The notes under the pieces are model-generated. The model was not told the origin of the DNA. It did no database searches and saw nothing but the letters and a program-made list of their open reading frames with translations. The position numbers and the translations under genes were made by a program. From Sphingomonas sp. AP4-R1 (GTDB taxonomy: Bacteria; Pseudomonadota; Alphaproteobacteria; Sphingomonadales; Sphingomonadaceae): DNA of 64,000 nucleotides. Location of the stretch: assembly GCF_013113735.1 (NCBI RefSeq), contig NZ_CP053346.1:3672001-3736000 (forward strand), read 5' to 3'. Shown piece after piece: positions 3,921-55,420 of this stretch (position 1 is its first letter; each line of letters opens with the position of its first letter).

Positions 3921-6134
3921 ATGGCGCGTGCAATCAATTTTTCGGCGGTTCCGCGTGGCATTGCCGGACGCATCGTCATTGCGATGGGTGCGATCGGCAG
4001 CCTGATCTTCGCGACCGCCGCGACTTTCTCCTATCACAGCACGAACGAAGCCATTCGTGGCGAAATCGCGGTCTCGCTCGTGACGGCTGCACGAGCTCAG
4101 GCGCGGGCGGCGAGCCTGTGGTTCGAGGGGCGACGGCAGCTTGTCGAAAGCGCGAACGAAGACGTTCTTCTTCAACCGTCCGGACAATCCCCGGAAGATG
4201 TGTTCAAACATCAGACCCTGCTGAACAGCTTCACGGGCGTCTATTATGGAGATGCCCTCACCGGCGCGTTTCACAATTATCCTCATCTCCGACCGCTGTC
4301 TCCAGGCTACGACCCGCGCAACCGTCCATGGTTCAGGAAGGCGGTTTCGGAGCATCGAACAGTCCTGACCGAACCGTATCGCGACGATTCGCTCGAAGAG
4401 GACGTGGTTACGATTGCCACCCCGCTGATCCGAGGCCGGACGATCGTTGGCGTGACCGGTGCGGACTTCTCGATCAAAAGTCTGGTCGCGATGCTCGAGG
4501 CCGATAAGCCACATGGTTCCCAAGTTTTCCTTGTCGACCGCTCCGGTAAGATCATGGTTCACAGTGACAAGCGGGTCGTTGGACATCCGGTCGCCGACCT
4601 GTTCGATGGTGACAAACCCGTGCTTTCTGAGCACCTCACGGAAGTGACCCAATCCGGCCACCGGAGGTTCGTCACTTTCGCGTCGATCCCCGGAAAAGCA
4701 GGGGAGGGCTGGCGGATCGGACTTTCGCTCGACGAGAATGTGGCGATGGCGGGATTAAACCGGTCGGTTCGTTTCAACGCCGGTTTCAGCGCGATCGAGA
4801 TACTCGCCTCGCTGCTTCTGATCTGGCTCATGCTCGCGCGCTATCTCCTGCGCCCGCTCAACACGATCATCGCGGCTATGAACGGACTTGTGGAAGGATC
4901 GAATGCCTCCCTCGCTCCGGAACTGAAGGCGCGCGCCGACGAGGTGGGCGAGCTTGCTCGCGCATTCACGGTGTTCCGTGCCGATCGCGCGCGCGTCGAA
5001 GAGCTTACCGGAGCAGAAGTAGCCCGGCTTGGCAAAGAGGCCCTTGCCAGGAAGGTGATGATGGCCAACCTGCAGCATTCGTTCGGCCGGGTCGTGAATG
5101 CAGCGGTCGCTGGCGACTTCAGCGCGCGCGTGGGACGAACGTTTCCCGACCCCGAAATGAATGAATTGGCGCGCTCCATCGATGATCTTGTCGAGACGAT
5201 GGACACCGGCCTGCGAGAGACCGGCGAGGTCCTTGGGGCCATCGCCAGCACGGACCTCAGCCGGCGTGTGAAGGGTGACTATCAGGGCGCCTTTGCCAAG
5301 CTGCAATCCGCCACGAACACCGTGGCTGACCGCTTGGGAGAAATATTGGGTGAACTTCATCGTACGTCGCGCCAGTTGAAGGAGGCTACCGGCTCCCTTC
5401 GGACAGAGGCCAGCGAGCTTTCGCGCAGAACGGTGGAGGAGACAGCCTCGCTTCGGACGGCGTCCGACGCCATTGACCGCCTGTCGAAGGTGGTGGCCGA
5501 GAATGCCAGTCATGCCGAGGTCGCAAGCGAGCGCGGACGGCAGGCGGCAACCTCCGTGATCTCGGGTCAGCATGTGATCGCCGAGGCGCGGGTAGCCATG
5601 GAGAAAATGGAGGCATCCTCCTCCTCCATTTCGAGCGTGATGAATACGATCGACGGAATCGCGTCGCGCACATCTCTGCTGGCTCTCAATGCATCCATTG
5701 AGGCCGCGCGGGCGGGCCAGGCCGGACTCGGATTCGCCGTGGTCGCGTCCGAAGTGAAAGCACTTGCCAATCGCGCTGCTGACGCCTCTCGGGAAGCCCG
5801 GATGCTTATTGAGCAGACGCGCAGCGAGCTTGCCAATGGCTCTGTGATGATGACCGAGGTCACTGAAAATCTGGAATCGATGCACGCTGCGGTTGAAGAC
5901 AATGCCGCACGACTGGACGTGATCGCGCGGGCAAACCGCGAGCAGGCGGCAAGCATCGGGGAATTGAACGATCGCCTTCACCGGATCGAAAGATCAACTG
6001 CCGACAATAACTCTCTCGCGGGGCAGCTTCAGAATACTGTGGATGAAACCACAATCAGGGCGGGCGAGCTCGATCGTATCGTTGAAACCTTTACTCTGAA
6101 CGACGTGACGGGAAAAATGCGCGCGGCCGCATGA
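3921..6134 (+). CDS. Methyl-accepting chemotaxis protein with a periplasmic Cache sensor
   Basis: A 737-residue transmembrane chemoreceptor. An N-terminal membrane helix (about 13-35) is followed by a periplasmic double-Cache-like ligand domain containing the YYGDALTG and DPRNRPWF segments typical of dCache sensors. A second membrane helix lies near residues 290-312 ([17 protein letters not shown]), then HAMP and a second HAMP-like linker, then a long coiled coil. The signalling tip around residues 575-620 reads [24 protein letters not shown], closely matching the conserved hairpin that contacts CheA and CheW. No CheB/CheR-binding pentapeptide is visible at the C terminus (ends KMRAAA). No che genes are adjacent, so it must work with an array encoded elsewhere. 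The ligand is unknown. Confidence 0.93.
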
Positions 6135-6315
6135 GCGCACGGCGACGACGGGAGGCGGCGGGCTGACCTCTGTCTCCACGTTTATTGTTCATGCCGAAGG
6201 CCGGAAGGGGGGCTGCGCGTGATCGGGGCCACGTCGCGTTGACCCGCTGCAAGAGGGGGCTGCAGCACTGCTCAAACATCAACGCCAGGCAGGTGGAGGG
6301 AGCCGATCTGCACAT

Positions 6316-6342
6316 AACTTCGTTTTGACAATAAGCGAAGTT
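6316..6342. promoter_or_regulatory. Inverted repeat upstream of the ParD/kinase fusion, possible operator
   Basis: AACTTCG (6316-6322) and CGAAGTT (6336-6342) form a perfect 7-bp inverted repeat with a 13-bp spacer, about 50-77 bp upstream of the proposed start of the kinase gene. The spacer contains a TTGACA hexamer at 6325-6330. ParD-type antitoxins bind inverted repeats in their own promoters, so this is a plausible autoregulatory site for the ribbon-helix-helix domain encoded just downstream. That link is inference. Confidence 0.35.
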
Positions 6343-6359
6343 GTTGCATCTGCCATTTG

Positions 6360-6387
6360 TTGACACAGGCGCCTCATCGCCTAAAAT
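6360..6387 (+). promoter_or_regulatory. Predicted sigma-70-type promoter giving a leaderless mRNA
   Basis: TTGACA at 6360-6365 is separated by 16 bp from TAAAAT at 6382-6387, a near-consensus housekeeping promoter. The ATG of the kinase begins at 6393, six bases after the -10 element, exactly where transcription would be expected to start. No ribosome-binding site precedes that ATG, which fits a leaderless transcript. Confidence 0.55.
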
Positions 6388-6392
6388 TCCGC

Positions 6393-9146
6393 ATGCCCAT
6401 TCGCCAGTCGCGCAACGTGTCGCTCACGCCCGAGCTCGATCAGTTTATCGAGAGCAGGCTCGCCGCTGGCGAGTATGGCAATGCCAGTGAGGTCGTCCGC
6501 ACCGCGATCAAGCTGCTGCGAGATCGGGAAGCGCCTGCCGTGCCGGATGGCCCCTGGCTGCATGGCAACGGAGAATGCGCCGATCTGATCCGAGCTTATG
6601 AATGGGCCCGTTCCCCGCTCGGCGATCCCGCCCGCTGGTCTCCAGAGCTGCGCGCGACCGTCACCAACATCGTCAACTCGCCCGTGCCCAAAGTGCTCAT
6701 GTGGGGCCCCGAGCACGTCATGATCTACAATGATAGCTACAGCGTTATCGCGGGCGGTTATCATCCGAAAGCGCTGGGAGGCACCGTATCCGGAATCTGG
6801 CCTGAGATCTGGGACTTCAATCGCGTCATCCTCGAGGCCGGTTTCAGGGGCGAGGTGTTTTCGCATCGGGACCAGCCCATGGTGGTTCGGCGCAATGGCC
6901 TGGACGAAGCGGTTACCTTCGACTTGTTTTATTCGCCCATCCGAGAAGCCGGCGGCCGGGTCGGCGGCGTGATGTGCACGGTCATCGAGAATACCGAGAA
7001 GGTGGAGGCCCAGCGCATGCTGGCGCGGAGCGAAGCCGAACTGCGCAGCATTACGGACGCCTTGCCCGTCCTCATCGCATTCATAGACCGGGACCATGTC
7101 TATCGGTTCGCGAACAGCTTCTATGAGGACTGGCTCGGCCTGAAGCCTGCCGATGTCGTCGATCGCCATGTGCGGGACGTTTTCGGCGAAGCTTTCTTCG
7201 AAAGCCGTCAGCCAATGATGACGCGCGCGCTGGCCGGAGAAACGATCCACTCAGACACGGTGCTGCCTTACCGGGACGGTGACGAGCGGGCAGCCGACGT
7301 CCGTTATATTCCGCGGATCGAAGCCGATGGATCGGTCAGCGGCTTCCACGTTCTCGCCTTCGACGTCTCGGAGCGTGTCGAACGGGAAAAGGCGCTCAAT
7401 CGCCATATAGAGCATCGGGAGCGGGCCGAAGCACAGTTGCGCGTACTGAACGAGACGCTCGAAGCGCGCGTGATCCAGGAGATCGGCGATCGTCGGCAGG
7501 CCGAGGCAGAACTCGCCCAGGCGCAAAAAATGGAGACGATCGGCAAGCTCACGGGCGGTGTCGCCCATGACTTCAACAATCTGCTGCAGGTCGTCTCGGG
7601 CAACCTCCAGATGCTGGTCAAGGACGTGTCTGGCAACGACCGCGCCGAGCGCCGGATCGCCAATGCGATGGCGGGCGTTTCCAGAGGCGCCAAGCTTGCC
7701 GCCCAGCTGCTGGCGTTCGGCCGCCGACAGGCGCTGGAGCCCAAGGTGGTCAACGCGACCCGCTTCGTCCGCGACATGGACGACATGTTGCGCCGGGCGA
7801 TCGGAGAAGGAATCGAAGTCGAGACGGTCGTCGGCGGTGGCCTCTGGAACACCTTCATCGATCCGATCCAGATCGAGAATGCGCTGCTCAACCTCGCGAT
7901 CAACGCGCGCGACGCCATGGAGGGCCAGGGCAAGCTCACGATCGAACTCGGCAATGCGAGCCTCGATGACGATTATGCGCGCCAGCATTCCGAGGTGGCT
8001 GCGGGCCAATATGTGATGCTCGCCGTGACCGATACCGGCTGCGGAATGCCGCCTGAGATTATCGAGAAAGTGTTCGAACCGTTCTTTTCGACCAAAGGCG
8101 AGGGCAAGGGATCGGGGCTTGGCCTTTCGATGGTCTACGGCTTCGTCAAGCAGTCCGGCGGGCACGTCAAAATCTATTCGGAAGTCGGCGAGGGGACGAC
8201 GATCAAGCTCTATCTGCCGCGTGCCGATGCGCCGGAAGATATCGAGATCGATGTCGAGAGTGGTCCTACGGCCGGTGGCAGCGAAACCGTTCTCGTCGTC
8301 GAGGATGATGACGAGGTCCGGGCGACCGTGGTCGAGATGCTGAGCGAGCTCGGCTACCGCGTCCTCAAGGCGGTCGACGCCAGCAGTGCGCTGAGTGTGA
8401 TCGAAAGCGGTATCCCGATCGACATCCTGTTCACGGACGTCGTGATGCCCGGTCGCCTCAAGAGCCCCGAACTCGCCCGGATGGCGCGCGAACGGCTGCC
8501 CGATCTCACCGTGCTCTTCACGTCCGGTTATACGGAGAATTCGATCGTGCATGGGGGCAAGCTGGATGCCGGAGTCGAACTGCTCTCAAAGCCCTATTCG
8601 CGCGAGGCTCTCGCCCGCAAATTTCGGCATGTCCTGGCCAACCAGCAGCAGTGCAACAAGGCTCGTCGTGAGCAGGGGAAGCTAGGAACAGAGCCGCAGA
8701 CACTTTGTGCCGAAACGCAGAAGCTCAATGTGCTGGTGGTCGAGGATGATGAGCTGATCCGTTCGGTGACCTCCGAAATGCTGGCGGAGATGATGACGGT
8801 AGTGACGGCGCCGAGTGCTGAAGACGCCGTGACCGCGTTGCAGACTGTACCGATCGACGTGCTCATTACAGACGTAAATTTGCCCGGACAGTCCGGGCCC
8901 GAGCTTGCCGAGCGTGCCCGAACCCTCCGGCCCGGGATTGGCATCGTCTTCGCAACAGGCGATAACGACGTCATGTTCGGAAGGGACGATCCGACCGTCG
9001 TAATTCTTCACAAACCCTTCGATGCGACCGCCCTCGTCAGGGCGATCAGTCTCTCAGCCATGAAGAAGGTCTCGACCGTCACGGATCAAGCCAACGGTGG
9101 TCAGGGAGAGCCGGCAATCGACAAAGATTGCGTTAAGGGTGAATGA
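6393..9146 (+). CDS. ParD-like ribbon-helix-helix / PAS hybrid histidine kinase with two receiver domains
   Basis: A 917-residue fusion with no membrane helix. Residues 1-45 ([13 protein letters not shown], then [19 protein letters not shown]) read as a ParD-type antitoxin ribbon-helix-helix DNA-binding domain. Then come a PAS-like sensor (about 65-200, with [12 protein letters not shown]), a second PAS (about 215-335), a coiled coil, a HisKA dimerisation domain with the phospho-accepting His392 in [10 protein letters not shown], an HATPase with its N box ([10 protein letters not shown]) and G boxes ([19 protein letters not shown]), and two receiver domains with phosphorylatable Asp682 (FTDVVMPG) and Asp827 (ITDVNLPG) and conserved lysines before Pro-Tyr and Pro-Phe. 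I prefer ATG 6393 over an in-frame TTG at 6357 because the predicted promoter lies between them. No ParE toxin gene follows. Confidence 0.85.
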
Positions 9147-54958: not shown

Positions 54959-55420
54959 GTCGTTACCCTTTTTCTCGGCTTCGGCAGTGTCATTCCCCGA
55001 TGCCGCTCGAAAAAGCCGGCGACAAGCTGATATGCCTTCGTCAGAGCATTCATGCGCTTGGACATGAGCTGCGCTCACCGACGAACCGATGGCCGGAACG
55101 AGCGTCATGTGGCGGCGGCCGAACGACGGCGGTGGATGTCCGCTTCGGGCCTTGGCGGTCGAAACCGCTGTCCGTCACCCGCCGTCAATCTCTGACAATA
55201 TCCCGGGACAACATTTGAGGCTGCGTTCCGGTGAGCACTCCTAAACCCATATCCGCAGGCGCTGAGCGAGGCGATGTCAAAGCTCTCTCCAAGAGCCTGG
55301 CTGAAAGATCCGCACCAGCTTTGGTGCGCATGCGCGTCTCCGATAGCGAACCGATCGTCTGGGTGGGTCGTTAAGGCCAGGGGCCGGAGCGGCGGCTGAT
55401 CAACGAGGAAAGAGAACGGG
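54959..55420. other. Divergent intergenic stretch with no supported gene
   Basis: About 460 bp between trehalase (minus) and the epoxide hydrolase gene (plus), so both promoters must lie here. A degenerate relative of the 17-bp element (half-site GTGTCATTCCCC near 54988) is present upstream of trehalase but lacks the ACCGGT core. No coding frame is convincing. Confidence 0.45.

Follow-up and report, generated by a model that had tools for sequence, protein, structure and literature searches.

Trifunctional PutA is a proline-oxidising enzyme that carries an N-terminal ribbon-helix-helix (RHH) domain and keeps its own gene repressed as long as its substrate is absent (PMC5293562, PMC5879082). 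The RHH antitoxin CopA(SO) of Shewanella oneidensis has the operator GTANTAC(N)3GTANTAC, in which 3 bp separate two palindromes of 7 bp each (PMC8706911). The hybrid two-component systems (HTCS) of Bacteroides unite a histidine kinase and a DNA-binding domain in a single chain (PMC11253607). No description of an RHH-histidine kinase fusion or operon was found among the papers listed in searches of the open-access literature, and the term 'histidine kinase' does not occur in a survey of type 2 toxin-antitoxin systems published in 2009 (PMC2701414). Here we describe such a fusion in Sphingomonas sp. AP4-R1, together with a candidate operator at its promoter that appears to be new.

The product of 6393-9146 in the window, the whole 64,000-nucleotide stretch, is a hybrid histidine kinase headed by a ParD-type RHH. 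Its frame on the forward strand starts with the ATG at 6393, stays open for 917 aa, and ends with the stop codon at 9146, and this translation start matches the starts of homologues and a promoter ending 5 bases upstream. The RHH occupies residues 1-47 (6393..6533), with helices at 13-24 and 31-45 in the AlphaFold2 model, and is followed on the same strand by a first PAS domain (about residues 61-200; 6573..6992), a second PAS domain (residues 222-329; 7056..7379; Pfam PAS_4, above cut-off), HisKA (residues 384-447; 7542..7733, with H392 at 7566-7568), HATPase_c (residues 490-611; 7860..8225; Pfam, above cut-off), a first receiver (about residues 633-748; 8289..8636, with D682 at 8436-8438; Pfam Response_reg and an NCBIfam CpdR-type match at 633-748), and a second receiver (residues 780-885; 8730..9047, with D827 at 8871-8873; the second of two Response_reg stretches, above the Pfam cut-off). 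The domain order read in the initial annotation is retained, with the HisKA score below the Pfam cut-off (21.7 vs 26.9 bits) and the first PAS recognized by structure only. This first PAS has no Pfam match of its own; the region adopts a PAS-type fold in the AlphaFold2 model with pLDDT mostly above 90, and the best PDB match of the N-terminal model is the PAS domain of Rv1364c (Foldseek, E 3.3e-8). The model of residues 1-218 has a mean pLDDT of 88.4 (82-87 in the RHH blocks), and linker residues 46-52 fall below 50 in the full-length model. The kinase looks active because H392, N504, D682, and D827, the catalytic His, Asn, and Asp residues of HisKA, HATPase, and the receivers, are invariant in an alignment of 54 sequences. 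Neither the Pfam matches nor the full-length model contain a DNA-binding domain C-terminal to the receivers, and no membrane segment was seen in the kinase's domains. The gene directly upstream (3921-6134, same strand) encodes a Cache-HAMP chemoreceptor.

The assignment of the first 45 residues to a ParD-type RHH, originally proposed by inspection, was borne out by profile searches. ParD_antitoxin (PF03693) matches residues 9-47 above its cut-off, with E 2.6e-7 for the whole protein and 2.6e-9 for residues 1-72 alone, and in the N-terminal piece residues 7-47 are recognized by TIGR02606 (55.4 bits, cut-off 46.2), a model absent among the best 25 of 156 rows of the whole-protein NCBIfam search. 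The nearest PDB sequences are solved ParD chains, namely 7b22 (E 5.5e-7), 3kxe, and 8c24. The best 50 Foldseek matches for the N-terminal model were PAS-type proteins only, and the link to ParD thus rests on sequence. The profile match stops at 45 of 81 positions for PF03693 (7-45) and at 42 of 70 for TIGR02606 (2-42), and PAS comes next; by this comparison, the fused RHH lacks the ParE-binding tail. Loss of the RHH contacts had been named as an argument against DNA binding, but the outward-facing ribbon residues are kept, with R4 in 110, R7 in 104, and N8 and S10 each in 99 of 121 sequences, a set (the query and the best 120 of 544 proteins) picked by likeness to the query and thereby favouring RHH carriers. 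In the same set, the RHH with ASE[VIL] is kept in 88 of 121 sequences, and the information in an alignment column averages 2.90 bits across the RHH, 1.04 across the linker, and 3.14 across the first PAS.

The fusion recurs in several orders. Among GTDB relatives (313 found, best 80 kept), many start with the same RHH, and a protein search with residues 1-210 returned the 544 proteins mentioned above, many of the best 120 being called 'type II toxin-antitoxin system ParD family antitoxin'. In its own family, it behaves as an accessory gene: residues 1-206 match 6 of 397 family genomes at E 1e-40, with the RHH covered in three of the six (decayed in one), and the whole protein at E 1e-200 is found in one of seven genus genomes, its own. 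A maximum-likelihood tree was built from 79 kinase cores; it leaves out L103 (a decayed fusion), L104, L105, L110, L111, and near-duplicates and labels the intact fusion L069 'none'. In this tree, each of the 42 fusion rows, whether intact or decayed, falls within one 48-row clade (SH-aLRT 98) spanning Sphingomonadales, Rhizobiales, and Acetobacteraceae; the split kinases described below sit on long branches and their placement is unsure. This single supported clade fits one fusion event followed by several decays and losses. Homologues starting at the PAS domain, which the initial annotation had regarded as a sign of a local artefact, do occur outside the clade, while within it the fusion is general, with secondary decays or losses; on comparative grounds, the fusion is no local artefact. 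Plasmid-borne fusions, some decayed, are found in Rhizobium, Agrobacterium, Neorhizobium, Roseomonas, Sphingobium, and Novosphingobium.

Several observations from these loci are recorded here. A contig labelled Arthrobacter sp. TPD3018 (L035) groups with Sphingomonas aquatilis (L040) and is probably a mislabelled or contaminated record. Among the rhizobial fusions L037, L078, L123, and L127, and L122, L124, and L125, several adjoin a stand-alone receiver gene and others an EAL-domain gene, whose products are possible signalling partners. An 87-aa free protein (P0134) has an RHH very like that of the rhizobial fusions and, by eye, a longer, ParD-tail-like C-terminus; it is possibly a relic of the donor antitoxin.

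The kinase gene is preceded by a promoter, TTGACA-16-TAAAAT, at 6360..6387 of the forward strand (11 of 12 matches; shuffled sequences averaged 0.0, with an sd of 0.2). Transcription would be expected to start at about the ATG at 6393, and a leaderless mRNA is thus probable. Comparison of homologous loci brought out an operator-like footprint at 6351..6367 of the same strand, the candidate operator TGCCATTTGTTGACACA, which consists of two GTGnCAC-like half-sites 10 bp apart and overlaps the -35 box; each half resembles GTGnCAC, a sequence that is its own reverse complement. The RHH had been suggested to bind somewhere around 6300-6400, and the footprints single out 6351-6367 in that region, with the binding predicted. 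The consensus of 20 intact loci is G(17/20)-TG-n-CA-nnn-R-TTGACAC-[AG], in which the first half-site has C and A in 20/20 and T and G in 19/20 loci, exactly 10 bp before TGACA. When loci were classed by script, with imperfect labels and with L012 assigned another start despite its TTGACAC[AG], this element stood 33 to 36 bp upstream of the ATG in 19/20 intact, 4/19 degenerate, and 1/42 loci classed as 'none'. Because TTGACA doubles as a -35 box, one half of the footprint may belong to the promoter itself. The sigma-54 promoter consensus is TGGCAC-N5-TTGC; a sigma-54 reading was rejected, given that TGGCA occurs in just 2 of the 20 loci and the spacing is different. A perfect inverted repeat, AACTTCG-N13-CGAAGTT, lies just upstream of the candidate operator (6316-6342).

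The two halves of the footprint have different fates in the 48-row clade. The downstream element TTGAC is kept at a fitting distance in 46 of 48 loci, whatever the state of the RHH, whereas the exact upstream half-site TGnCA, which in intact fusions stands exactly 10 bp before TGAC of TTGAC, occurs in 18/21 loci with an intact RHH vs 1/26 with a decayed or lost RHH (L020, without upstream DNA, was left out). The Fisher p value of 5e-9 ignores kinship, and the motif was derived from the same loci that give the 18/21. The labels behind this count are partly a matter of judgement, as the automatic classes were partly wrong (L053, L037, L041, L054, L126, and others) and were corrected by hand; counting L037 as decayed (ribbon changed, NASEVV kept) favours the operator reading, and counting L053 as intact works against it. 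Contrasts within the tree agree for L033/L043 vs L032/L101/L035/L040, for L069 vs L037/L078/L127, and for the window/L009/L011/L099 vs L012/L013/L041; the contrast of L122/L123 agrees with L126 but not with L014. The exceptions are L014, in which the RHH is decayed and the site kept, and L053, L119, and L125, in which the RHH is intact without an exact TGnCA. A promoter-only reading of the footprint is weakened, as the upstream half-site is lost along with the RHH.

We consider it likely that RHH dimers of the hybrid kinase occupy 6351-6367 and repress their own promoter, an autogenous, PutA-like arrangement. Two RHH dimers would sit side by side on the two 7-bp GTGnCAC-like half-sites and, once bound, would block the -35 box and so repress the kinase promoter. 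With such repression the kinase would set or limit its own level. We infer both the binding and its sign from the comparison, and PAS input or phosphorylation may influence binding.

It could instead be that the RHH merely aids dimerization or docking of the kinase, and that the motif upstream belongs to an extended promoter or is bound by some other regulator. Histidine kinases are dimers and RHHs dimerise, and the persistence of TTGAC regardless of the RHH, together with the retention of TTGACACA in the RHH-less L101, would sit well with this alternative. We nevertheless regard it as unlikely, since the upstream half-site goes with RHH decay, the exposed ribbon residues are conserved, and, as described next, the motif precedes split RHH genes even though their kinases differ.

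In plasmids of Azospirillum, Microvirga, and Methylobacterium, the RHH is encoded separately, by a gene for 63-66 aa that lies immediately upstream of a PAS kinase gene and has no ParE with it, and further tail-less RHH genes of 58-78 aa precede kinases of other types. The kinase behind the RHH contains GAF, PAS, and HisKA in Methylobacterium aquaticum (L180) and Microvirga lotononidis (L181), PAS and HWE in a second M. lotononidis locus (L185) and in Microvirga VF16 (L182), PAS and HisKA in Sphingobium yanoikuyae (L186), and GAF and PAS in L148, where it runs off the end of the locus; L183 and L184 have just truncated PAS pieces. In L184 (3001-4263, Skermanella mucosa), the split RHH gene and the truncated PAS piece are followed by IS66-type transposase genes, that is, a broken operon. 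The closest stand-alone proteins to the RHH of this kinase include nine tail-less proteins of 63-70 aa among 32 matches. The composite TGnCA-N5-TGACA is exact in 3 of 11 split operons (L117 of Microvirga, L148, and L182, at -44 to -46) and within one mismatch in 5 of 11, a set that includes L148, L183, and L184 and one of three Azospirillum loci; shuffles lead one to expect 0.0002 and 0.009 per sequence, respectively. The exact site is absent from the other 8 of 11, and Azospirillum is without it entirely. As the split operons hold the RHH as a separate protein, covalent coupling would not be needed for an association of RHH and kinase or for level control.

The same composite is exact in 2 of 17 promoters of parD genes (L152 and L157) and within one mismatch in 4 of 17, a ParE-like gene lying behind 15 of these, by eye or annotation, and none being seen behind L156 and L162. 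ParDs with an Asn before the ribbon [VI]xL score higher for the motif (8 vs 9, p 0.004), and also with the loci added on rereading, as the first pattern had missed 11 of 29 (L150, L151, L158-L160, L163-L165, L169, L174, and L175; 11 vs 16, p 0.0002; L153 and L164 came out in the wrong frame in this rereading), in a ribbon grouping that is our own, partly judged, and post hoc. Where the ParD ribbon is of the NTS type, 8 of 10 loci have the palindrome TACCA-N5-TGGTA, a second kind of operator in the ParD family; L151, L159, L160, L161, L162, L163, L169, and L174 share it, and in six of these it stands 40-46 bp upstream of the ATG. Taken together, the Asn-ribbon scores and the NTS palindrome indicate that ribbon and operator go together, which supports the view that the motif is read by the RHH. 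In L166, L167, L168, L170, L171, and L173, a ParD-type RHH is fused, by eye, to a nucleotidyltransferase-like domain (143-148 aa), mostly with a HEPN/DUF86-like gene behind, and L166 has an exact TGnCA-N5-TGACA at -58.

A further alternative is that the fusion acts as a transcription factor gated by a signal and serving a wider regulon, so that the state of the kinase would decide whether the RHH binds at each of several promoters. One chain does hold a sensor, a kinase, and a DNA-binding domain, and PutA offers a precedent for a ligand-controlled RHH enzyme. Scans with the strict motif gave no sign of a wider regulon in this genome or in 13 other genomes or plasmids. In this genome, TGNCAYNNNTTGACACR has one exact match, at its own promoter, and the four further one-mismatch sites are about as many as the three in a reversed control; of the two whose neighbouring ORFs were inspected, L133 lies about 45 bp upstream of an ORF and is a candidate. 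In the 13 others, TGNCANNNNTTGACACR has 11 exact matches vs four in the control, and coordinate comparison places all 11 at the promoter of the RHH gene, with variants in L033 and L119. The looser motif TGNCANNNNTTGAC has a second exact match in the window on the minus strand (55184-55197), 76 bp before a trehalase-like ORF and hence not at -35. With the strict motif confined to the own promoter and the split RHHs not tied to a kinase, we hold a wider regulon to be unlikely, and somewhat less probable than a dimerization role. For the same two reasons, the idea in the initial annotation that one polypeptide drives operators by phosphorelay is so far unsupported.

ParE gave six matches in this genome, five of them above cut-off and the last two being pieces of one place, all at least 0.5 Mb away, in keeping with the earlier statement that no toxin is encoded here. 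Two stand-alone ParD genes each have ParE directly behind (1747899/1748128 and 3164239/3164511; the fusion is at 3678393). No ParE was found within 10 kb of a fusion or split RHH in the 13 further genomes or plasmids; the nearest lies about 10.3 kb away in G783, and a match at a similar coordinate in G779 sits on a different, 75-kb contig. That the fusion is a working antitoxin neutralising a ParE encoded elsewhere is very improbable: four long ParE matches are available in the genome, but two of them follow a ParD of their own, and although the N-terminal ParD-type RHH is present, the ParE-binding tail and a ParE in the same operon are absent.

Autogenous repression by the kinase's RHH remains our preferred reading. 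Far more tentatively, toxin-less ParD-type RHHs may serve sensor kinases of alphaproteobacteria as a control module that has recurred, once by fusion and several times as a gene directly upstream, and that reads a shared TGnCA-N5-TGACA operator, with the signalling state of the fused kinase directly gating repression of its own gene. If the autogenous reading is true, a DNA-binding domain from an antitoxin would have left its toxin and been put to use in the control of signalling proteins. With a predicted 17-bp operator and its obvious mutants, the possibility of a histidine kinase serving as the transcription factor of its own gene becomes directly testable. The N-terminal RHH also explains why kinases of 900-1,050 aa bear the NCBI name "ParD family antitoxin", which is misleading.

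When compared with known systems, the fusion resembles ParD antitoxins (PF03693, TIGR02606) in its RHH sequence and in an operator type shared with 2 of 17 parD promoters, but differs in lacking the tail and an adjoining ParE and in being joined to a kinase. The candidate operator has the same 7+3+7 layout as that reported for CopA(SO) (PMC8706911), although the half-site differs and CopA(SO) is a true antitoxin with a ParE partner. As in the Bacteroides HTCS, kinase and DNA-binding domain share one chain; in the HTCS, the sensor lies in the membrane and DNA binding is a task of the response-regulator part, whereas here the RHH stands at the N-terminus. Trifunctional PutA is the nearest precedent for the mechanism, with an N-terminal RHH on an enzyme and, for the fusion, a predicted operator at its own promoter. 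The enzyme is a different one, and the release of PutA by proline is published, whereas for the fusion binding is predicted and release hypothetical.
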